From the NCBI GenBank assembly GCA_014621425.1, contig JAANBB010000049.1, positions 1 to 64,000 of the forward strand: 64,000 nucleotides of DNA. Reading direction: 5' to 3'. A program made the position numbers and the translations under genes. The notes under the pieces were generated by a model. That model made no database searches, was not told the origin of the DNA, and saw nothing but the letters and a program-made list of their open reading frames with translations. Origin of the DNA: Cylindrodendrum hubeiense. Lineage: Eukaryota; Ascomycota; Sordariomycetes; Hypocreales; Nectriaceae. Of this stretch, positions 834-48,236 are shown one piece after another. Position 1 is the stretch's first letter, and each line of letters starts with the position of its first letter.

Positions 834-3800
834 CTAGACTGAGCCCACGCCTCCATCCTCGAGCGCCTCGTCCCACCCGCCCATCTGCAGGAGAAACTCG
901 CCGAGCCGCTGTTTGACGTGCGTCACGTTCTCACCCAGGGCGCTTTTCCACTGGTCTCGCACAACGCGGACCTTCTCTTTGAGGTCCTCCGTCAAGCGGC
1001 GCTCTTCGGCCTGCCGCATGTGCTGCGCGCGGGCCTCGCGTTCCTCGGCGGGGATGGGCTTGCCGTCCGCCTCCGCCGTCTGCGTCTCCAGCACCTTGCC
1101 CTTCGCGTGGACAACCGCCTCCTTGACCTCATGTAGTAGGCACAGCAGGTTCGTATGTGACTCGATGAACTGGTGCGTGCTCTTCTCAGCGTGCAGCAGA
1201 AGGCTGAATAGGTACTGCATCGGGTACACGTGGTACATTGGGTTCTCCTCGAACTCGGCCGGGGGAATCTGGATGTTGAAGCCATCGAGGTCGAGCGGGA
1301 TGTTGTCGAGCAGCCCGCACAGCGGAGGTGCAAGGTCCCAGAAGGCAGATAGTTGTATCGCCACGCCGCGTTCAACGGCCTCCTCGATAACGGACCGGAA
1401 GTCTCGCGCCCGGTCCAAGACCTCGTTGGCGAACGCATACTCTCGCCTGGATGAGTCCTCAGCGAAGAAAGCCTCTGCCGATTTGAGCTTCTCCTCGTTG
1501 CCAGAAAGTCGATATGGAGTCATAACGACTTCACAATAACGGCCGTTACGATCCGAAAGGAGGTCATAGATGGCCCGGTGCAAAGACTCGCGAGCTTCAA
1601 AGATCCACTTCAGAAGCGTAAGCTTCTCTAGGAGCTCTGGTCTATCGTCACCCTCCTCTTGCGGCATGTCGGCGTCGTTCTGCCCATTGTCAAACAGATG
1701 ACGAGACACGTCATCAAAGAGTTCGGCAGCACGGGTGATGCGGCTCGTTAGCAACTCATTTAGGGGCACCACCACCTGGTTCTGAAACAGTTCGTATTCC
1801 GACTTTTCGAGCTCCTTCTTCTGGCCAACTTCGCTCTTCTGTGAATCGGATTCAATCGCCGCTGCATCTGCGTAGCTGATGTTTCCAGAGTTGATTTCCT
1901 GCTGCAGGTTCGCCCTGAGAGCACCTTGTCTCTCGGCCGCTGTCTTGGCGAACTGTTCCCGGCGCTTCGAGCTGTCGGCGGCGAATTTTTCCTTGGCAAC
2001 AGCGACTTCTGATAGCTCGGTCAAGGATCGGACTGACGTTCGGATCGAAGTCAGCTGAGGGTGACTGTTGTTGACGGCAGGATGATGCCTGGGATAGGGG
2101 GGCGGCAAGGTAACGAGACGGGAAATGTCCAAATACTCGCGGTTAACCGTAGAAACCGGACTTGAGCCCAGCGAGGTATTGGAGAATGTCAAGGGTTGGG
2201 GAGTCAAACTTGGCTCCGATTGATCATGCCAGCCCGTCTTCTCTGGTGGGTACTCTGAAGCTGAGCCCTGCTCACTCGTGTCTGCGTAGCCTGCCGAGTT
2301 CTGACCATCCTCGGCCCATTGTGTCTTCGAAACACCCATATACTTTGATTCCCGCTTGGATCGCTCTAACCTGGATGGATCACCTTGCTGCGAGTCCGCC
2401 TCCCACCAGCGACTCGGTGGCCTTCCTCGGCTGCTGTTTTCCGGGTTGTCGCTCACGCTCATACTGAGAATGGGAGACAGTGAGGGCATGTAGTTGCTGG
2501 CCCAGTTAACGTTGGTCGCACTGCCGGTCGCACCGCCACCGGGGGACACGGGGATGCCGGCAGAACTGGGAGCTGAGTGAGAGTTGCCCTCGGGCCGTTG
2601 GCTTGAACCAATAGATCCACGGTGGGAGCGCGTTGGTTCAGAAGAATCTGGAGTGAACTCATCGTGGGAAGTATTCGATTCCCGTCGCCCCGTCGCAACC
2701 ATCGGTCGGAAGAGATCGCGCGTCAGGTCAAAGATCTCTGAGCCCATAGCCCCAATAGCCCCGGAGTATCGTTCCCGTCTGATTCTCGATTCGTTGACAA
2801 TGAAGTCAGCGAACATGCGGACTCGGTCTGCATCCATGGGGGCTGTCGCCTCGTTGGCTGCGAATACCCGGAACCGCTCAATAGTATCAGCTGCAAACTG
2901 TTCCGCAGTTTGAGTGACAACTAAGTGTTTTGAGATGGGAATCGACCCAGATGCAGGTGGACGCGATGATTCTCGAGGGCGCGAGCTTGAGGCGGAGCGA
3001 ACGTGAGGCGGGGGAGTTGGGAGAGCCTTGGGAGCCACTGCAGTTGAGCTGCTGCCACCGTACTGAGTTTGCTTGGCGGGATATGGAGAGAAGGGCGGCG
3101 TTTCTGTCTCTGGATGAGGAAGCTTGGCGGATGGAAGTGCTCTGGGTGTCGAGTTCCTGGAATCTCCTTGGGTAAGGGAGTCGCCGGTTTTGGGTGGTAG
3201 TTCAACCAGTCCCCTCCCAGCACTGCGTGGTGTCGACCTGCCCAAGGTTGGTCTGCGAGTGAGTCCGCCCTTATCGCCGGCCACCACGATATCCGAGATC
3301 GAATTCGGCAGAGTATTGTCATCAATAGAGCCACGGACACTTTGCCGGGTTCGACTCTCCGTTCGCCTCTGAATGATCGTCTTGTCATGGCGCACCGCTT
3401 TGGTTCTATTTAAGGCGCCGGCGCTGGATGTGGAAGAACTCAGTGAGTCGATCTGCGGTTGGCTGGAACTGCTCGCGCCTGCGGTATCAATTGTTAGACC
3501 AGGAGAACGACCTCGAGATCGTGGGGCTGGCTGATTGTCAGAATCAACCCAATCTGCTGGTGTTGGTGGAACAGGGCCCAGATTCGTCACGCCGGTGGGT
3601 GGTCGACGTCGGGTGGGAGGAGATATAATAGGAACATTAGTCCGGTCTATACTCTGGACGCTTTGTGATCTCGACCCAGCTGGGGGTGGTCCTGGTGGAG
3701 GTGGAGGAAGAGGCATGCCCGGTTCCCATCTCGTCTGTGAGTCCGATCTTGAGCGAGCGGAGGTCGGTGTTGCTATGGCGCCAGCTGAAGCAGCTCGGCG

Positions 3801-4465
3801 AGCTGCTGGAGGAGCAAACCCAGACATGGAGCCCATATGATCTAGCGGCGACGGGTGGAGGTTGGTTTGTATTATCATGCTCTGTCTGTTGGGATGCATA
3901 GCGGGATGAGGGCCCGGTGAACTCGAGTTGCGGTCGTTTCGACGGCTCAATGAAGGCAGCCCAAAGCGACGGGAGGACCCTCCTGGAGGAGGAGGAAATG
4001 AAGGGTTAATAGGATTAAGAGCATGCGGCTCTGGAGAAGGTCGGTGGATGGTGGTGTTGATCCGCGGTGGTGGTGTCGGAGTAGACGCAGGTGAAGCTTC
4101 AAAGACTTGGCTGATTGGCCGCTGCTGCTGGCTCCTCGGCGGGCTATATGGAGGTGGTGGCAGTGGTGACCCTGAAGCTGTTAGTGAGCATGAGGGTTAC
4201 AGAGCCATGAAGCATAATGCTTACCTTGACCCTCGCCAGAAAATTGGCTGGGCCGCTCTGGGCCGCCAGCGGGCGTGGCGACCCATTGTTGGGGATTGTA
4301 GGGCTGAATGGTGCTGGCGGGGGTTTGAACAGAGTGGAGGTGGGAGGAGGTCATAGAGATGGCAGAGATGGGCGTGCCGTGAGAGTTGGAATAGGCGCCA
4401 AGGGAGGTTGTTGTGAGAGGATTGAGACCATGGCGGAGTCGCGTGGGATCGCGAGGAGAAGTCAT
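834..4465 (-). CDS. Large fungus-specific protein, disordered N-terminus and helical C-terminus (function unknown)
   Basis: Two exons give a 1194-residue protein: exon 1 is 4465-4225 and exon 2 is 4177-834. The 47-bp intron has a GTAAGC donor and CTAACAG acceptor, and the phase is consistent (241 nt in exon 1). The ATG at 4465 opens MTSPRDPTRLRHGLNPLTTT; the apparent start near 3950 is only an internal TTG. Roughly the first 650 residues are proline-, serine- and arginine-rich with poly-proline runs, typical of disorder. From about residue 780 the sequence becomes charged and helical, with coiled-coil-like stretches (for example AVAKEKFAADSSKRREQFAK). A folded segment contains LLDNIPLDLDGFNIQIPPAE and YPMQYLFSLLLHAEKST. 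I recognise no catalytic motif, signal peptide or membrane span, so I assign no function. The C-terminal half is the part likely to be conserved. Confidence 0.8.
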
Positions 4466-11536: not shown

Positions 11537-13960
11537 ATGGCAGCGGTGACGTACGACGGCGTTGAGAGCGCCGAGGGGGGGAACATCTTCAAAGACGTCA
11601 AGTTCTGGGTCGCTATGCGAGTTCCAACGAGGAAATCGATACTCGAAATGATCACGGTAGGCCAACTCCTTCAGACAGGCTCGCTCAACCCAACTCTAAC
11701 ATTTTTATAGAATAACGGCGGTACTGTCGTGCCTTTGGAGAAGAATGCAGATATCCTCATCGCGGATCACGCAAGGAAGGATGCCCCCGCAGGATCCTAC
11801 TCATGGAAATTCATCACCGAGTCTGTGGAGAACGGCATCATTCAGATCAAGGATCGATATCGCATCGGACGAGATCCAGATCTTCCAAGGCCAGTTGGTG
11901 GAGCTAGTGGCGGCACAAAGTCGACCCGAACGCCCTTCAGTGTTGCCGACGATGCGGCACTCGCCAAGTGGGTGCTCGCTCACACAGTTGACCGGACGGG
12001 AAACAAGATCTTCCAGGAGTTTGAGGGTATCGTAAGTTTGTCTTTGATTTGAGGGGGGCTGCGCTGACTGGTTTAGAACCCCCGACATACCTGGCAGTCG
12101 TGGCGAAATCGCTTCGTCAAGACCCTCCAACTACTCCCGATAGACAAATTACAGAAGATTGCTGCTTCGGCACCAGAACAGGTGTCGAATAGTCCTGAGG
12201 ACCAAGCCGAAGCGACTACAACTGCTCCGAACCAGCCACAGGAAACTGACAAGGACATTCCTCGTCGACCTGCCGAAAACAGCTCCCCGCCACGGTCTGA
12301 AACCGCAGAGCGGCCCGAAACAGTTCCCGAGCCTATCCAGGCCGAGAATGACACCCGCCAAGACGATGAGCAAGATGTTCTTCTTTCGGACACAGAAGAA
12401 AACACAATAAAGAAGGCATTCTACGAAGACCTAACCGACTTTGTCGCAGCATACGGACTCGATATCAAGCTGCGACCCAAAATTAATGGCAAGACAATCG
12501 AACTCTGGGACCTCGCCCAAGTAGTACAAGAGAAGCTAGGAGACCGTCCAGGGGAGTTGGAAGATGAAGACTGGGCCGAAGTCGCCGTCGATATGGGATT
12601 AGAAGCTGGTGAGATTGCCATTTCCCAACTACGGCAATGCTTCGATGAAAGCTTAGCCGAGTTCTTGGAGGCTGTGGGGAGCTTCGATGAAGAGGATCTT
12701 GAGGCTGAAGATCGAGTCCATGACCCGAGTCCGGTTCTTGCTCGTGCATATGATGGCTTTGATGAGTCATATTTTGAGAACTTGCCAGAGCACCCTTGGC
12801 CAGAGATGTCACTCCCTAACGACGCCCCCGAAGGGCTGCCACACAGCTATGTGAGATCATCGCCACCCATTGGGGCAAAACGGTCTCTGGGCCAGCGGCC
12901 GCTCTCTTCGTCGGGACCTTTGACCAAACGACCGCGGTACAATAGGAAGTTGGAGATTCCCTCAACTCCAGACATGCAGGATAGGACGGGTCGAAAGGTT
13001 CCCTCGGCTCAGTACTTCTCTCCCAGTATCCGAAAGAGCCTTTCGCGGCAAGACTATGTGGATGTTAGCGAAGCATCGCAGCAGCTCCCACCTTTCCGCC
13101 TTCCACAGGAAGATGAGCTACAGGAGGAGGACGAACCAGATGATGAAATTCAGGAGCTTGGGATATCAGACTCGAGGGTGGTGCAGCCCCAATCTCCCCT
13201 ACTTGACACACGAGCAACTCCCGTTAACGAGACAACACCATCTCAGCAACTGGGTGCAGAATCACTAAACCCTAGCCCTATCCCTTTCACTCTTAATAAA
13301 ACTCGCCAGTTCAAGGAGGTAGGCCTGGGAAGATCTCGTTTACAAGCCGAACGGAGGTCAGAGGCAACCCCAAATCCACATCAAGAAGGCAGCTCAAGAG
13401 AAACAGCCATCTCTACACGAAACCTCACGTCTGTCGCCAAAAAGGAACTAAAAGCTTCCTCACGACGCTCCCTCCCCTCCTCATTCAACTCCACTTCCCG
13501 CTCAAAGCCTTCTGCAGATTCAGCTCCAGCCCCAACCCAAACCAACGCACCACAACGCCCACGGCCTATGCCCTCAGATTCTAATCGCCGTGACATCGAC
13601 GAATGGATCAAATACTACGAATCCCTGGGCTTTTCTCGCTCCATCGTCGTCGAGGGCCTTAAGCGCACTACCCTCACTCCCGGTGGCCTCGCCAAACTCG
13701 TCATGCAGAGCCTCCAGGACGGCAACGAGGTACCCTCCCACCACGAGGGCATTTGGACGGACCGTGACGATGCCGACCTGACTCTAATCGCCTCTGTGGA
13801 TCTCCGTCGCGAACCCTCTGGCCCCGCAGATGAGCGTCGCTATCGCAAGGTACGCAAAGCGTCTGATCGGCTCATTAAGAAGCACGGCCCAGCTAGGATG
13901 GAGCTCAGGAAGGGATTTCTTGATGCGCCAGCTTCGGAAACCCCAGAGTCGCGGGGCTAG
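11537..13960 (+). CDS. RAP1: Telomere protein Rap1 (BRCT, Myb, C-terminal RCT)
   Basis: Three exons (11537-11656, 11711-12031, 12077-13960) encode 774 residues. Rap1 is a shelterin-like nuclear protein recruited to telomeres. Order of parts: a BRCT domain in about residues 1-100 (NIFKDVKFWVAMRVPTRKSI to SYSWKFITESVENG); a Rap1-type Myb domain at about 114-167 (FSVADDAALAKWVLAHT, then WQSWRNRFVKTL, split by intron 2); an acidic linker; a segment at about 256-322 resembling an ARID fold (AFYEDLTDFVAAYG to WAEVAVDMGLE); a long basic/serine linker; and the RCT domain from about 651 (WIKYYESLGFSRSIVVEGLK). Both introns are short GT-AG with continuous frame. It is transcribed away from SWF1 and converges with KAR5. 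Confidence 0.9.
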
Positions 13961-33295: not shown

Positions 33296-35206
33296 AGAAA
33301 TCTACCCGACTACCGATTCAATCTACGACACGCTGCATCGCAACACAACCCCATAATGCGCCCTTCTGATACCGACGACATCTCGGATCCTTCCATGACT
33401 TTTCTAGCTCTATGAGCTCACAACATTTGGCACCCTCTGAGGCGGGTCCCCATTCCCAACTCCATTTTGCGCATCTCGATACAGATTCCCACACGGTACA
33501 AAAACAGCAACGGAGATACCTCGTGGTTTGGTTACTTAGGTGGTGGTCGCATTTCCCGAGCGGTCTTTCGTTTTTGAGATGATTAATCTTCGTTACCTAC
33601 TTTTCTTTCGAACTCCATTACATGAACTGCATGCGACGGCGTATAGCGGCATGGCTTGGCACTTTATTCTTCTTCTTGTTTGTTCTTTTCCTGGAATGGA
33701 ACTGCATATACTATACAATGGGGCGTTTGTCGCGGTCCATCACACAACATGACAGAGACACGGTAGCATGGAATTGCATGGTCAAGGATTGGGATGACAT
33801 TGGGAGGACGGGAGAGGCATACGGGGGGAGGGGGACACAATGGGAAACGGCGATTGCAAGAGCGGCCCGAGGGTCGACTGATGTAGATATGCGGTAAGGG
33901 CAATGTATATGTAGCTTACATGTTACAATCATGAAGTCTTTGGAACAAAATAGTTGCCAGTTGAAGATGACGTGACTTGACTATGGAAATTGTGCTTGGT
34001 ATGGTGTTCGATGAGATGTCTCAGCGTCCCACCGTCACGTTGCCTTTTCTTCTCTGATCCTCCAGACAAGGACCCGGTAAATTGGCCTTTGGAGAGACAC
34101 TTTTAGCCCAGTTAAGATCATGTGATGATGGTGGTTTTGGGGGAGAAGCTGGGGACAAAACCACCGGAGCACGGCCGATCTTACCACGTCAACGAGGTCA
34201 ACAATCCTTCGTCCCAACTTAATTTGTGAGTAAATTCGTAATGTTAGACCGTGTTTAGGACAAAGGAATCATAAATCTCAAGATCTAAGCCCAAACGACC
34301 CTCCATCAACTGTCGATCTCCAGCCCGCCGCCTTCCAACCCGCCGAACGTGGCGTAAATGGCGTTGCAGTAGTCCACTCGCTAGGAGTAAGCCCGCGAGG
34401 GGAACTTTGAAGCTGCTGCCTCGAGTTGAAGTCGTTTGTCTGATGCAGCCACTTGCTTGGACCCCGCCTGATTAGTCTCAGTGGCAGTTTAACCAGCCTG
34501 ACGGAATGCGTCCTCTTACTTCGGTACCCCTGATACCAACGGTACGGACCGACGGTACTTTGGAGCTTGGCAATGGACTGAGTGCCGGAGTTTGCATATC
34601 AAGCTGGTCTAATAAAGGACCCTAAACCTTATGGAGAGGCGGGAATTGATTCTGTCCATTATAGCTTCCGTGGGTTCCCGAAGGAGGAATTACTGCTGTC
34701 ATCTTACAAGACGGAGTGAGAGGCGAGGTGACACATTTTTTCTTCTTCCCAATAGCTGACAGGATGTCTCACCGCCTGCTAGAATTTCCGCATCGCTTCC
34801 TAATCCGAGAGAGATAGTTACACAACCTTTCTTTTCAAGTCGGTTTCGTGCGGAAGCCACAGACAGGTACTTCTGACCCAATCCCTTCCACCTCAAACCC
34901 AAGACATTAGACCACATCAAGTCAATCGGGCGCCAGCCACCGCCGAATCTCCATCTGCGACTTCCTCACGGATCCAACGCGCCGAATTCCGGCGTTTTGT
35001 CTTGCTGGTGCTTGGGGTTTCTCCAGAGAATAAATATCAGCAATCCGGGGCCCCATCGTGGATCCAACGACTTTCCACCTCAGACCCTCCTTTCTCCATT
35101 CATTCTGCCTCGCTTCGCATCCGTTTGACTTAGACGGAGCATAATCCCGGGAAAGAGTGCTGACCTCTTGATCGCCGGCTACGACAATAGCTCTCCGACT
35201 TTCACC
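33296..35206. other. 1.9-kb intergenic region upstream of the ammonia-lyase
   Basis: Holds the DBF4 3' UTR and the ammonia-lyase promoter. It also holds a coding-like relic at 34306-34488 listed separately. Otherwise no gene, RNA or repeat recognised. Confidence 0.45.
34306..34488 (-). pseudogene. Interrupted coding-like fragment
   Basis: A minus-strand frame of 60 codons between TAA and TGA reads SKQVAASDKRLQLEAAASKF then, after an in-frame TAG at 34383-34381, RVDYCNAIYATFGGLEGGLE. Both sides look protein-like, and one base change (CAG to TAG) would explain the stop. Alternatively the TAG is the end of an intron (CTCCTAG) and the second half an isolated 3' exon. Family not recognised. Confidence 0.25.
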
Positions 35207-37381
35207 ATGTCGACCTTCGGAACGTCGGCCCACGCCACCTCTACGCTGGATATCTGGCGTCGCCTCCGGGATCTCAAGACCGGCAAGAGCAAGATTGTCC
35301 TCGACGGCAATAGCCTTGACATCTCCTCCATCATTGCCGTGGCCCGCTACGGCGTCAAGCCTGAGATTAGCCAGGATGAGGCCCTCGCCCGCCGCATCGC
35401 CCTGAGCGTTGATGCCCTCAACAATTACCTTGCTAACAAATATGTTGTGTATGGCGTCAACACTGGCTTTGGCGGCAGTGCTGATGTGCGCACTGACGAC
35501 TGGATCGAGAATCAGATCGGTGTTCTGCAGCATACCCAGAGCGCAATTATTACCTCCTTCGACAAGGCCCCTGGGAACAACTCGGAGCGTGAGCCCTCTC
35601 ACGTCATGCCGCTCGAGTGGGTGCGCGGTGCCATTGTCGCTCGCGCCAACCAGAATATGCGCGGCCAGAGCTCCGTCCGGCTTGAGGTGCTCCAGAGGCT
35701 GGTGAAGCTGCTGCATCATGATATCACTCCTCTGGTGCCGATCCGAGGCACAATCTCTGCGTCGGGCGACCTCATGCCCATGTCATACATTGCTGGCGCA
35801 GTTACCGGCAATCCGGATATCTTTGTGCAGGTCGGAAAGGAACAGGCGGCCAAGGTAATGCCCTCGTCAGAGGCACTTCAGCAGAGCGGCCTCTCACCCA
35901 GCGGTCTTGGCCCCAAGGAGGCCCTTGGCCTTATCAACGGCACTGCACCCTCTGTGTCCCTCGCCAGTCTCGTACTCCACGACACGCATCAGCTCGCCGT
36001 GATGGCCCAGATGCTGACTGCCTTTGCATCCGAAAGCATGGGCGGCAACGTTGAGTGGGCAACACCTTTTATCCATGCTGTACGACCACATCCCGGCCAG
36101 ATCGAGGCTGCTGCAAACATCCGCAGCTTCCTGCGGGGTTCCAGCTTCGTTGTTGGCCTGGATGAACGAAAAAGAACCGGCGAGGGACTCTGGCAAGATC
36201 GATATTCCACACGAACGAGCCCCCAGTGGATTGGTCCTTACCTAGAGGATCTCCTTCTGGCCCAGCGACAGATCTCTGTAGAGCTGAATTCTACGTCGGA
36301 TAACCCCCTGGTTGATGCATCGGAGAAGGATGGCAAAGCGGTGGGAGAGGTGTATTCTGGAGGAAACTTCCAGGCTGTCGTTATCACTTCGGCCATGGAC
36401 AAAACGCGACTGGCCCTGCAGATGATCGGGCGTATGCTCTTCTCCCAGGTCAGCGAGATCATTAACCCGTCCACCAGCAATGGCCTCGAGGCCAACCTTA
36501 ACGTCAGCGACAAGGAAAACTTTACCATGAAGGGCATTGATGTTAACATGGCCGCGTACATGTCGGAGCTGGCAGCACTTGCGCACCCTGTCTCATCCCA
36601 CGTCATGTCTGCTGAGATGCACAACCAGGGAATCAACTCTCTCGCCCTGCTCTCGGCCCGACGAACCATGGAGGCCGCGGATCTGGTCGCTCACATGTGC
36701 GCCTGCCATATTTATATCTCGTGCCAAGCGGTTGATCTGCGTGCGAGCCACCTTCTTTTCCTAGAGACTCTACGAAATAGAATGTTGAGGGATGCCACGG
36801 AGAGCGGGCCTTTCCACGCCTTTGGATTGACAGAAGTAGAAGTACAAAAACTGACCGAATTTGTCTTCCCGGTTGTCGAGTCGGCTTGGTATGCTCACAA
36901 CGCTGGCTCCTGGAAGAATCGCGTGTTGCCCGCGGTGGACGCTGCGATGGCACCTGTCACCCAGTTCCTGGCGACGGAGAATAAGGACTGCACTATCTCC
37001 AGCCTCGCTGTTTTCAGAGCAACTTTCCACAAGGCCGTCGTTGAAACCTCATCATCCATTTTCTACCCAAACATGGCCATCCGCCCTGTTGATGTGGCCA
37101 CTAAGCTGGGTGATGGTTCTGCCCAACTGTATACGTGGGTACGGTCGAAGCTGGGTGTACCAACTCAGTGTGGTATCGACGATGACCCCCTGTACAATGC
37201 CCAGAAAGGTCTCCCGACAGAGAACAAGAAAACTATTGGAAGCTGGGTCAGCATGGTGTACGAGAGTTTGAGGGGGGACTTGATGGACATGGCTATGGAG
37301 TCGATGGAAACGCCGCGAGCTGGACCACGGACAGCTGATGAATTTGATGAGCTATGTAAGGTGATGAAGGAAAATTACTAG
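35207..37381 (+). CDS. PAL: Phenylalanine ammonia-lyase family protein (MIO enzyme)
   Basis: A single exon of 724 residues from the ATG at 35207; the frame is open from 35168 but only via TTG. Family members deaminate L-phenylalanine (or tyrosine/histidine) non-oxidatively to the trans-acrylate and ammonia. The Ala185-Ser186-Gly187 triad in GTISASGDLMPMSYIAGAVT forms the MIO cofactor. Catalytic Tyr82 lies in YGVNTGFGG, and NGTAPSVSL, STSDNPLVD and GGNFQAVVI are the expected active-site loops. The C-terminal extension and shielding domain match eukaryotic PAL length. The substrate-selectivity pair in LQHTQSA is His109-Thr110 rather than the usual His-Gln or Phe-Leu, so substrate is uncertain. 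Neighbours give no pathway clue. Confidence 0.88.
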   Translation: MSTFGTSAHATSTLDIWRRLRDLKTGKSKIVLDGNSLDISSIIAVARYGVKPEISQDEALARRIALSVDALNNYLANKYVVYGVNTGFGGSADVRTDDWIENQIGVLQHTQSAIITSFDKAPGNNSEREPSHVMPLEWVRGAIVARANQNMRGQSSVRLEVLQRLVKLLHHDITPLVPIRGTISASGDLMPMSYIAGAVTGNPDIFVQVGKEQAAKVMPSSEALQQSGLSPSGLGPKEALGLINGTAPSVSLASLVLHDTHQLAVMAQMLTAFASESMGGNVEWATPFIHAVRPHPGQIEAAANIRSFLRGSSFVVGLDERKRTGEGLWQDRYSTRTSPQWIGPYLEDLLLAQRQISVELNSTSDNPLVDASEKDGKAVGEVYSGGNFQAVVITSAMDKTRLALQMIGRMLFSQVSEIINPSTSNGLEANLNVSDKENFTMKGIDVNMAAYMSELAALAHPVSSHVMSAEMHNQGINSLALLSARRTMEAADLVAHMCACHIYISCQAVDLRASHLLFLETLRNRMLRDATESGPFHAFGLTEVEVQKLTEFVFPVVESAWYAHNAGSWKNRVLPAVDAAMAPVTQFLATENKDCTISSLAVFRATFHKAVVETSSSIFYPNMAIRPVDVATKLGDGSAQLYTWVRSKLGVPTQCGIDDDPLYNAQKGLPTENKKTIGSWVSMVYESLRGDLMDMAMESMETPRAGPRTADEFDELCKVMKENY

Positions 37382-41006: not shown

Positions 41007-41007
41007 A

Positions 41008-41126
41008 ACATACAACAGTGAGGATTCCCCGGTCGTCACCGACCCGAGTACTAATTCACCGCTTCTCAGCTTGACTAGGGGAGAGCGGACGGGATCCCGT
41101 ATTTTCTAAGAGCTATGGTCGTATGT
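41008..41126 (-). rRNA. 5S ribosomal RNA (copy A)
   Basis: 119 nt on the minus strand from acatacgaccatag to ctgttgtatgt, with the internal box region (gggatcccgtccgct and tactcgggtcggtgacgacc) characteristic of ascomycete 5S rRNA. The two ends pair (ACATAC with G-rich GTATGT). It is followed by T-rich sequence at the 3' side, a Pol III terminator. It differs from copies B and C at two positions, both transitions (C to T in the 3' strand of the terminal region; G to A in gtggatta). Confidence 0.88.
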
Positions 41127-41143: not shown

Positions 41144-41191
41144 GTGGCATCAAATCTACAGGAATCAAGATTCCAGGAAGAGGCAAAAAGA

Positions 41192-41310
41192 ACATACAAC
41201 AGTGGGGATTCCCCGGTCGTCACCGACCCGAGTACTAATCCACCGCTTCTCAGCTTGACTAGGGGAGAGCGGACGGGATCCCGTATTTTCTAAGAGCTAT
41301 GGTCGTATGT
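41192..41310 (-). rRNA. 5S ribosomal RNA (copy B)
   Basis: 119 nt on the minus strand, identical by eye to copy C at 47499-47617. It ends in gtatgttctttttgcc, giving a T5 terminator. It lies 65 bp from copy A in the same direction, so A and B form a local direct pair. The flanks between them are not duplicated beyond the short upstream element. Confidence 0.9.
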
Positions 41311-42367: not shown

Positions 42368-43377
42368 ATGAGTAGCCCACGCCGCAGGATTGAGACTGAT
42401 GTGAGTCTTGAGTCGCATGGAAGTCACTGGTGTGATCAAAGCTGACCAAATCCTCCATCTTAGGTCATGAAGTATGCCGGCGCAGTCTGCTCATTCAATA
42501 TGGTCTGAGGTGCTAACCGTGTCGCAGGATGTACGATGCAGCTCTGCAGAACCTCGACGACGACTCGCTAACATATACAGGCTCATGAGCGATTACGAAG
42601 TCACGTTGGTTAATGACAACAGTAAGGTCCCCCAGCTCTGACGACGGTAGATAAGCTAACATTCTACAGTGTAAGCGCAGTTCCTGCCGACAGACTCCTC
42701 GTCCATCCCCTCCCTAACCGATGCTTCCAGGCAAGAGTTTTTCGTTCGATTCAAGGGCCCGGCCGAAAGTCAGTACCTTAAAGAGCTTCCTCCAACTGGG
42801 TGTGTCCGCTGACACCTGGCAGCTCCGTTCGAAGGCGGCATATGGAAAGTCCACGTCGAGCTCCCCGATACCTACCCGTACAAATCCCCTAGCATTGGAT
42901 TTGTCAACCGCATCTTCCACCCCAATATCGATGAACTGTGAGTCACTTCGGACATATAAACTGGAAAGGTCCGACAGAACGAGAGATACTAAGACGAGGT
43001 ACCTCAGGTCTGGATCCGTTTGCCTGGACGTCATCAACCAGACATGGTCTCCCATGTTCGACATGATCAACATATTCGAGGTCTTCCTGCCCCAGCTCCT
43101 GCGATACCCCAACCCTACCGATCCCCTCAATGGCGAAGCCGCTGCCTTGTTGATTAGGGAACCTAAGAGCTATGACGTCAAGGTCAAAGGTACGCGATAC
43201 CGGCGATTCTCTCCCCCAACTCGTGTTGACCATGGAACAGAGTACGTGACAAAGTATGCGAACAAAGATGCTGCAGACGAGGCTGGAGCCGAGAGCGAGG
43301 ATGATGATGATTTGTCCTCGGTTGCCAGCTTCGGCGATGACGACGAGGAGCCCGCTGGCCAGATGGATGATGTATAG
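42368..43377 (+). CDS. UBC8: Ubiquitin-conjugating enzyme E2, Ubc8/UBE2H type, with microexons
   Basis: Nine exons give 185 residues: 42368-42400, 42464-42471 (8 nt), 42528-42530 (3 nt), 42581-42621, 42670 (1 nt), 42731-42768, 42823-42937, 43008-43189, 43241-43377. Every intron (63, 56, 50, 48, 60, 54, 70, 51 bp) begins GT and ends AG, most with a clear CTAAC/CTGAC branch. The protein opens [20 protein letters not shown] and continues [20 protein letters not shown]. The active Cys85 sits in [15 protein letters not shown], and the C-terminus is acidic. Ubc8 enzymes act with the GID/CTLH ligase on gluconeogenic enzymes. Without the 3-nt exon the family-conserved KxLMSD loses a residue. Without the 1-nt exon (which completes the ATG codon of NDNMQEF) the frame is lost. 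Confidence 0.88.
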
Positions 43378-43806: not shown

Positions 43807-44853
43807 TTAATCAGAGTCATAATTCACCAGTCCGGCCAAGACGCTGGCTTCCTGCGCGAGTACCTTTGGGGCCGGGGCTGCATCTTCCTGTAACGTACGT
43901 TTTCGTTTCACTCCTGGCAGCCTGGCTGGTGGTTTGGCTTCTCCAGCTCGAGCATCCCGTAGGAAGGGATCCTTGGCCACCCGGGTGTTGCCTATGAGTT
44001 CCGATACCAGAGACTCCTTCCTCCGTGACGCCTCCTTCTCAGACTTGAGCATGACGCTCTTGGATGAGGCTTGTGGTTTCTTGCTGGAGCTACCACCACC
44101 GAATAAGGGCTTGGAGAGTGCGCGGTCCCGAGCGTCATCGTCAACGGGACCGAAATCGACCAGGGCGGCACGACGGGAATCCTCCTCCGTTGCCGGTACC
44201 AGGTCGATCCCAAGGCTCATGCGGTCTTTGAGGTCCTCCGTTGCCGCGGCGGCGGTCTCGCGGCTCTTCCTTCCCACGCGGAATGCCCGACGCAGCTTCT
44301 GATTTTGAGTATATGGGTCGTCCCAGTGGCGCGCTGACGCTTCTTCCAAATCGTCGATCCGTTCCGTCGCTTGCATCAGCTGCTCGCGGTCCGCGATGGT
44401 CTTCTCTAGGCTCGCAAACGCATTCTTGCGCAGCGCCTCGCGCTCCTGGTCCGTCAAGATGACGCTGTCGCCTTCACGCACGAGGTCCTCGCCCGTATCG
44501 CGCTTGGCGGCGCCCTCGACGACGACGTATGCAGTATTCTTGGGGTCGGTGCGGATCTCGATGTCGCCGCCGCAGTCGAGGTGGCGGATACGAAAGGCCC
44601 ATATGGGCGTCGACAGGTAGTTGCCCACGCGGCGCTTTTGGGCGTTGAAGCGGACGCCCTGGCCGATGATGGTGGGCTTCGGGCAGGTCGAGCACCAGAT
44701 GGCGAATGGCATCTCGAAGCGCACCGTGAGGACGCCGTGCGAAGCGAGTTTGGAGGCGCGCGCGCCGAGGGCGTGTTTGCCGTGCAGGCGGTTGCCTGAC
44801 GTGGTGCCTTCGACGTCCGGCGGGACGTAACGTCCCATGTTGAAGCCCTGCAT
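43807..44853 (-). CDS. SAF4: Cwf16/Yju2-family splicing factor, Saf4/CCDC130 type
   Basis: Single exon, 348 residues from the ATG at 44853 (MQGFNMGRYVPPDVEGTTSG). The N-terminal 130 residues carry the family core: KHALGARASKLASHGVLTVR, FEMPFAIWCSTCPKPTIIGQ, GVRFNAQKRRVGNYLSTPIW and DCGGDIEIRTDPKNTAYVVV, including the cysteines of a zinc site. The rest is a helical, charged tail ending in a basic stretch (PGVKRKRTLQ), a possible nuclear signal. Family members join the spliceosome at the catalytic step. The CCDC130/Saf4 branch is favoured over Yju2 because of the GxxSGNxLxGKHALG-like opening and the CPxPTIIGQG insertion, both known to me from that branch. Confidence 0.88.
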   Translation of the reverse strand: MQGFNMGRYVPPDVEGTTSGNRLHGKHALGARASKLASHGVLTVRFEMPFAIWCSTCPKPTIIGQGVRFNAQKRRVGNYLSTPIWAFRIRHLDCGGDIEIRTDPKNTAYVVVEGAAKRDTGEDLVREGDSVILTDQEREALRKNAFASLEKTIADREQLMQATERIDDLEEASARHWDDPYTQNQKLRRAFRVGRKSRETAAAATEDLKDRMSLGIDLVPATEEDSRRAALVDFGPVDDDARDRALSKPLFGGGSSSKKPQASSKSVMLKSEKEASRRKESLVSELIGNTRVAKDPFLRDARAGEAKPPARLPGVKRKRTLQEDAAPAPKVLAQEASVLAGLVNYDSD

Positions 44854-47498: not shown

Positions 47499-47617
47499 AC
47501 ATACGACCATAGCTCTTAGAAAATACGGGATCCCGTCCGCTCTCCCCTAGTCAAGCTGAGAAGCGGTGGATTAGTACTCGGGTCGGTGACGACCGGGGAA
47601 TCCCCACTGTTGTATGT
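47499..47617 (+). rRNA. 5S ribosomal RNA (copy C)
   Basis: 119 nt from acatacgaccatag to ctgttgtatgt, followed by tctcttttttgc, a T6 Pol III terminator. Sequence equals copy B by eye. It lies about 6.2 kb from copies A/B in the opposite orientation, fitting a genome with dispersed 5S genes. Confidence 0.9.
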
Positions 47618-48236
47618 TCTCTTTTTTGCTGCCAGTACTTTTTATGACTTTCTCTGACGTTTTCTTTTGTCTTCCCTGCTTTCAAATCACAACGTGCACT
47701 ATCTAAGTAGTTGCTGTCTGTTTTCTGACAGTGCAACAGGCACTCGCGATGCTGAAAGATATCAGCAAGGATCCTTGGGAACGCGGTTGGGCGAGTTGGA
47801 TTCTTGTTAAGGACGCAGTGAGCCTTAATAGCTGCCATGTTTTCCCAGAAAGCAAGGAAATGGCGCAATATGGCAAGGGTCTCTCGGTGGTCTCTTCGCA
47901 CTCGTCAATCTCATCCTGCAGCTGGATCTGAAAATCGACGCCCCATAGGTTGTCTCTCAGAGAGATAGGATCAACGATAGGAATCTTCTGCAGTTTGCTA
48001 GCGAATATAAGTCTCACATTATGGAGTGAATATTCCACAAAGAGCAAAGGTGTTGAGTTGTTTCTGAGCCGAGGACAAGAACTAGGCTGGGAAGCCAGGT
48101 CTCCCACCATTATGCTCCTCCAGATGGCCGAGTCAAGAGACCAACGAGAACAATTCCCGTGCGTTATACAGCAGGGTTCCGCACGTGTGCTACGGTCGAT
48201 CTCATGCCATGACCGCCGGGAGGAAATTGAGTACAA
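47551..48236 (-). pseudogene. Possible broken gene in two frames
   Basis: A minus-strand frame from about 48236 reads MYSISSRRSWHEIDRSTRAE to NLWGVDFQIQLQDEIDECEE at about 47890. Protein-like sequence then continues in another frame (RETLAILRHFLAFWENMAAI, PRILADIFQHRECLLHCQKT) toward 47700. A single frameshift near 47885 would join them. The second frame finally runs into 5S copy C on the opposite strand, so its end is not meaningful. No family recognised. Confidence 0.25.

Follow-up and report, generated by a model that had tools for sequence, protein, structure and literature searches.

The UBC8 gene of Cylindrodendrum hubeiense lies on the forward strand at positions 42368-43377 of the window (the whole stretch of 64,000 nt that was analysed), with nine exons encoding a protein of 185 aa (Table 1). 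All eight of its introns are GT-AG introns, and its three smallest exons measure 8, 3 and 1 nt. The 8 nt exon together with its donor occurs a single time in the 47.5 Mb genome. Tail-to-tail with UBC8 is a gene for a Saf4/Yju2 protein (PF04502, E 2.2e-71), presumably a member of a splicing-factor family; this proximity is probably a coincidence. Three dispersed 5S rRNA genes are present in the window, two of them on the reverse strand a short way upstream of UBC8. Further away are a long ORF encoding an ARID domain together with a Rap1 C-terminal domain, a combination that is presumably telomere-protein-like, an ORF for an aromatic amino acid lyase (PF00221, E 5.6e-143), and a 1038 aa open frame that matches nothing in Pfam at E 0.001.

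Table 1. Exons and introns of UBC8 and other features of the window.
Feature	Position	Strand	Details
Exon 1	42368..42400	+	33 nt
Intron 1	42401..42463	+	63 nt, GTGAGT...TTAG, CTGAC
Exon 2 (8 nt micro-exon)	42464..42471	+	GTCATGAA; V12, M13 and first two bases of K14
Intron 2	42472..42527	+	56 nt, GTATGC...GCAG, CTAAC
Exon 3 (3 nt micro-exon)	42528..42530	+	GAT; last base of K14 and first two bases of M15
Intron 3	42531..42580	+	50 nt, GTACGA...ACAG, CTAAC
Exon 4	42581..42621	+	41 nt, phase 1 end (AAC A)
Intron 4	42622..42669	+	48 nt, GTAAGG...ACAG, CTAAC
Exon 5 (1 nt micro-exon)	42670..42670	+	T; middle base of ATG for M29
Intron 5	42671..42730	+	60 nt, GTAAGC...CCAG, CTAAC
Exon 6	42731..42768	+	38 nt, phase 2 start (G CAA GAG)
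Intron 6	42769..42822	+	54 nt
Exon 7	42823..42937	+	115 nt
Intron 7	42938..43007	+	70 nt
Exon 8	43008..43189	+	182 nt
Intron 8	43190..43240	+	51 nt
Exon 9	43241..43377	+	137 nt, stop codon included
Saf4/Yju2 protein	43807..44853	-	PF04502
5S rRNA gene	41007..41126	-	
5S rRNA gene	41191..41310	-	
5S rRNA gene	47499..47618	+	
ARID/Rap1 C-terminal ORF	12182..13960	+	
Aromatic amino acid lyase ORF	35168..37381	+	PF00221
Open frame	834..3950	-	1038 aa

The UBC8 protein contains a ubiquitin-conjugating enzyme domain (PF00179, E 2e-38). Its top three solved relatives are 8pmq_E ('E2-24 kDa', residues 1-183 aligned), which is presumably yeast Ubc8, and human UBE2H 8pjn and 2z5d. At the site of the 3 nt exon there is no gap in the alignment with either 8pmq_E or human UBE2H; at the site of the 1 nt exon 8pmq_E again aligns without a gap, and human UBE2H is one residue short. 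E2 enzymes of the UBC8/UBE2H type are the E2 partners of the GID/CTLH ligase. A Pfam scan of the genome returned 33 E2 matches. In a tblastn search of 30 of these 33 loci with the UBC8 protein, a close match was found at UBC8 only (stretches of 86 % and 50 %), with 24-40 % elsewhere except in L016/L023 (50 % over 48 residues). The gene encodes a UBC8/UBE2H-type E2 of a hypocrealean fungus and is the sole one of this type found among the 30 E2 loci searched.

The preliminary description of this DNA placed the micro-exons at 42464-42471, 42528-42530 and 42670, and the sequence matches these positions exactly. Its further claim, that the single T completes an ATG codon and holds the frame, is correct; skipping the T shifts the rest of the protein. 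The 3 nt exon was described as supplying the residue that keeps the K-x-LMSD spacing. It does supply this residue, but it is not required for the frame, as skipping it is in frame and costs only M15. The flanking introns were described as complete introns with CTAAC branch points, and GT-AG ends and donors are indeed present in all five. CTAAC is present in four of them, introns 2-5, where its last base lies 11, 9, 10 and 13 nt, respectively, from the 3′ splice site; intron 1 has CTGAC instead, 18 nt from the 3′ splice site. The 1 nt exon appears in the context ACAG-T-GTAAGC, between two short introns each with its own CTAAC.

An ab initio harvest of introns from 54 of 62 sequences (the window and L001-L061, with eight overlapping loci dropped) gave 8 and 7 clusters at first and then 48 clusters, and both motifs were found in 22 of the 48. 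Because the harvested introns had been selected by GTRNG and CTRAY, only length and branch distance are independent, and they were used for these two properties only. The 22 introns, none of which lies in UBC8, measure 51-102 nt (at most 75 nt in 20 of them), with the branch motif 9-41 nt from the 3′ end (12-14 nt in 15). UBC8 introns 3 and 4 are slightly below the shortest harvested intron, and all but one of the four CTAAC sites are slightly nearer the 3′ end than in the bulk of the harvested introns. Searching the genome with the strict pattern CTAAC-N4-18-CAG-N0-10-GTAAGY returned 52 matches versus 140 for a reversed control, with no sign of many micro-exons of this pattern. Of the three other matches with a 1-base gap, L044 and L055 resemble ordinary coding sequence by eye; nothing indicating a micro-exon was seen by eye at the third, L058, or at L060, one of the matches with a 2-base gap.

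All open, in-frame chains that begin at the start codon and finish with exon 6 (42368-42768) were enumerated, allowing up to six introns of 40-130 nt, GT-AG introns only. Among the resulting 18,864 chains, the one with the 8, 3 and 1 nt exons is the best match to yeast Ubc8, with a score of 150. The runner-up, at 140, also uses the 1 nt exon, and depends on TGAG as acceptor and GTCGCA as donor. If the 3 nt exon is skipped the score is 137, the best chain without any 1 nt exon gives 134, and the best chains without exons shorter than 4 nt and shorter than 9 nt give 124 and 115, respectively. Exactly one of the 18,864 chains encodes the UBC8 protein. Against human UBE2H, which is one residue shorter here, a single-intron rival reading NDNSKFF scores 68 versus 66 for the micro-exon chain. 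In-frame joins without a 1 nt exon do exist (NDNKFF and NDNSKFF), and are rejected because of homology and the short-contig proteins considered below, not because of frame. For NDNKFF, a 114 nt intron (42622-42735) with an AAG inside exon 6 as its acceptor would keep the frame, yielding NDN-K-FFV with two residues fewer. This join is open, yet it scores 124 against yeast Ubc8 where the micro-exon chain scores 150, and it loses the M-Q-E of the conserved MQEF.

Dinucleotide shuffles (20,000 each) of a 109 nt interval around each exon, with the outer splice sites fixed, were used as a chance test. The T exon with its full signals was found in none of the shuffles, and any open 1 nt exon with full signals in 3; the corresponding counts for the GAT exon and any open 3 nt exon are 0 and 1. 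With YAG and GT alone, the T exon arises in 244 shuffles and any open 1 nt exon in 1,213, compared with 18 for the GAT exon and 814 for any open 3 nt exon. It is thus the completeness of the signals that makes a chance origin of the two exons unlikely. The pair of introns around the T also resembles a stwintron, in which nested introns are both wholly removed and no exon is left between them, in that adjacent introns are removed sequentially; stwintrons are described in Hypoxylaceae and Xylariaceae (PMC12403724). However, if everything between the outer splice sites were removed, A would be joined to GCAAG and the frame shifted, so that one T must stay, and the interval contains just one YAG-T-GT with at least 40 nt on both sides. 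A stwintron is therefore extremely unlikely as an account of the present gene; the arrangement may have originated as one.

Relatives were collected in three protein searches, seeded with the window's UBC8 protein, Dothistroma P0077 and Tuber P0165, taking the best 120 of over 5,700 matches each. The matches listed comprise 214 distinct proteins, of which 152 are from named Pezizomycotina, 6 from other fungi, 2 plant-labelled and 54 without an organism name. Taxonomic classes were assigned from genus names, and the plant-labelled entries P0001 and P0096 were excluded from the Pezizomycotina count. P0001, a 302 aa E2 labelled Quercus suber, has the top score in all three listings, yet is 62 % identical to each seed; it is possibly a model containing two E2 domains. 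Sites were classed by regular expression, with VMKRLMSD (P0043), which may be an artefact, scored as intact and VMSLMSD (P0183) scored as a skip.

At the 1 nt site, 135 of the 152 named Pezizomycotina proteins among the matches listed are distorted and 17 are intact, although the list may be enriched in distorted models because two of the seeds, P0077 and P0165, are themselves distorted. The 17 intact models could reflect intron loss. Distorted models are found in Sordario-, Leotio-, Dothideo-, Eurotio-, Lecanoro-, Geoglosso- and Pezizomycetes. The expectation that gene finders would miss exons of this size is borne out by these 135 models and by the 95 of 151 evaluable listed models that are distorted at the 8/3 nt site. 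Several of the distortions can be read directly against the window. NDNM[YF][VAM], in 12 listed models, fits A plus T read through into a GTA- or GTT-type donor, and NDNSK, in 30, fits a read-through of A-GTAAG. An inserted peptide precedes RQEF in 48 listed models, 21 of which have LT close upstream; in the window, translation of the CTAAC branch motif gives LTD at the place of this LT.

The residues at the two junctions of the distorted models, with codons inferred from peptides, are informative about phase. A codon starting in A could encode the residue after NDN in all 123 readable listed models (12 of the 135 being unreadable at this junction), and one ending in G could encode the residue before QEF in all 111 readable ones (24 unreadable); the latter is a weaker test in that 13 of the 20 residues qualify. 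In positional controls on slightly smaller sets, the counts after NDN are 121/121 at offset 1, 71/103 at offset 2 and 21/76 at offset 3, and those before QEF are 100/100, then 65/94 and 53/69. The junction residues imply a phase-1 donor and a phase-2 acceptor, both conserved, and therefore exons 4 and 6 that cannot be joined without one extra base. Searches for the relatives' DNA gave no match in viral contigs and only three distant prokaryotic loci in genome contigs, which were not used. An assembly or sequencing error, that is, a base lost or gained beside exon 4 or exon 6, would mimic such a mismatch at a locus known from one assembly; the same mismatch implied at every readable junction of the listed relatives, and the complete intron pair surrounding the T, make an error of this kind extremely improbable.

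The 54 proteins without an organism name provide a second line of comparison. Their contigs measure 0.9-7.3 kb (no length is given for P0051) and their frames are uninterrupted, and because of these two features they are taken to be mostly transcript-derived, which is probable, the source tags being silent on type. All 54 unlabelled proteins listed have the NDNMQEF form intact (in some as NDNMSEF, HDNMQEF or similar, of equal length), and the K-x-[LMF]MSD spacing is kept in all 51 that can be evaluated. Six of them agree at every aligned position downstream of the micro-exons with named models that are distorted at the 1 nt site. The pairs, with the intact protein first, are P0005 and Ilyonectria destructans P0008 (151/151), P0089 and Lepidopterella P0211 (152/152), P0099 and Penicillium chrysogenum P0139 (151/151), P0114 and Aspergillus carbonarius P0214 (151/151), and both P0091 and P0186 with Morchella snyderi P0190 (150/150 each). 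P0005 begins at M13, which fits either retention of intron 1 or a cut contig. The downstream part of the window's UBC8 is 150/151 identical to P0005 and P0008, the nearest pair of the set, which places the window near Ilyonectria, a genus of the Nectriaceae. The NDNKFF join discussed above has a counterpart in the NDNKF of 12 listed named Pezizomycotina models, but it is seen in 0 of the 54 unlabelled proteins, and P. chrysogenum P0139 has NDNKF where the downstream-identical P0099 has NDNMQEF. Splicing by this join is accordingly very improbable.

At the 8/3 nt site, the 152 listed Pezizomycotina proteins divide into 56 intact, 47 without the residue, 5 with KMY, 43 otherwise altered and 1 uncovered. 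The MKMY of the five KMY models fits GAT read through into its donor, and one of them, the Beauveria model P0013, has KMYDA, just as the window's GAT and donor would read. Normal skipping of the 3 nt exon (VMK-LMSD) would be in frame and would match the 47 models in which the residue is absent. The residue is kept, however, in all 51 evaluable unlabelled proteins as well as in the yeast-type and human relatives of solved structure, complete introns flank the GAT exon on both sides, and KMYDA in P0013 fits read-through from a GAT exon; habitual skipping is hence most unlikely. Support at this site is strongest in Hypocreales, where 3 of 42 listed proteins are intact, and weakest in Dothideomycetes, where 23 of 35 are. 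The breadth of the 3 nt exon is less sure for this reason, and in Dothideomycetes it may be absent or better annotated.

The named fungi outside Pezizomycotina (Saitoella, Borealophlyctis, Chytridium, Gamsiella, Paraphysoderma and Neocallimastix) are intact at both sites in six of six cases, and the Pezizomycetes (Tuber, Morchella, Terfezia and others) are intact at the 1 nt site in 0 of 10. As the Pezizomycetes are also distorted, the simplest interpretation would place the origin of the out-of-phase intron pair on the Pezizomycotina stem, judged from few outgroups whose intact models are no proof of intron absence. The 1 nt exon arrangement is apparently old and widespread in Pezizomycotina, and would not be peculiar to this fungus. 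A more extended reading is that all three exons date from the base of Pezizomycotina or earlier and were kept because their demanding sequential splicing, through intron retention or skipping, might tune the amount of functional Ubc8. The ancient origin that forms half of this reading is well supported by the protein comparisons; the regulatory half is speculative and the reading as a whole is doubtful.

Intron definition is favoured as the mode of recognition because the introns flanking the UBC8 micro-exons are complete and close in design to the other introns of the genome. Each has its own donor, branch motif and acceptor, and could be recognized across the intron. With a single base separating the intron 4 acceptor from the intron 5 donor, the two sites could hardly be occupied simultaneously, so that these introns should leave one after the other, intron 4 probably first. 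Their successive removal would leave the T as the second base of the codon for Met29. Were intron 4 to leave first, the exon context of the intron 5 donor is predicted to become CAT instead of AGT; the usual donor exon context is (C/A)AG, to which CAT is the closer. Intron definition with sequential splicing is thus proposed as the best mechanism for the UBC8 micro-exons. The preliminary description holds with respect to gene identity, coordinates, frame logic and splice signals. From these and from homology we infer that splicing in this fungus follows the same course, and it is very probable that the UBC8 mRNA is made by removal of eight GT-AG introns with the 8, 3 and 1 nt exons between them, the 1 nt arrangement being apparently old and misannotated in most of the genome models listed.

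Mitochondrial 1 nt exons are reportedly the subject of placozoan and Ophiostoma/Ceratocystis mitogenome papers. No earlier report of a UBC8 micro-exon was found among titles and abstract starts in the open PMC literature. The authors describing a 1 nt exon in Fusarium CYP621A call it the first in a fungal gene, and report RNA reads across it (PMC12940212, 2026). CYP621A is, like UBC8, a nuclear fungal gene in which a single base completes a conserved codon, a phase-one end cannot be joined to the phase-two start of the next exon, and gene models are wrong. It differs in the base (G rather than T), in being a Fusarium P450 gene and in having one micro-exon rather than exons of 8, 3 and 1 nt in one gene; the UBC8 signal extends across several classes and is known from protein comparison, whereas CYP621A has reads (PMC12940212).

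Likewise, Arabidopsis APC11 is a misannotated ubiquitin-pathway gene with a constitutive 1 nt exon, although it is a different gene in a plant, the base is A, and it was tested with constructs (PMC4674806, 2015). Its authors favour intron definition and recursive splicing with introns removed one by one, and simultaneous use of splice sites across tiny exons is argued to be implausible both for APC11 (PMC4674806) and for plant micro-exons generally (PMC8831610). The conserved 1 nt exons of plant APC11 and VPS55 are, like that of UBC8, absent from reference annotations, but belong to land plants and have RNA-seq and RT-PCR support (PMC8831610, 2022). Trichoderma Xlr2 also has a micro-exon in a filamentous ascomycete, in that case of 20 nt and glucose-dependent (PMC11121469).

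Single-base exons are already known from plants and Fusarium CYP621A, and UBC8 stands out by combining three micro-exons in a single gene and by its apparent breadth. It would be a second nuclear fungal gene with a 1 nt exon and, by the protein evidence, far wider spread. By implication, residues have been invented or lost in many of the UBC8 entries deposited for filamentous ascomycetes (135 of the 152 listed). The gene is additionally a natural test of the minimum exon size for the spliceosome and of the order in which adjoining introns are removed.
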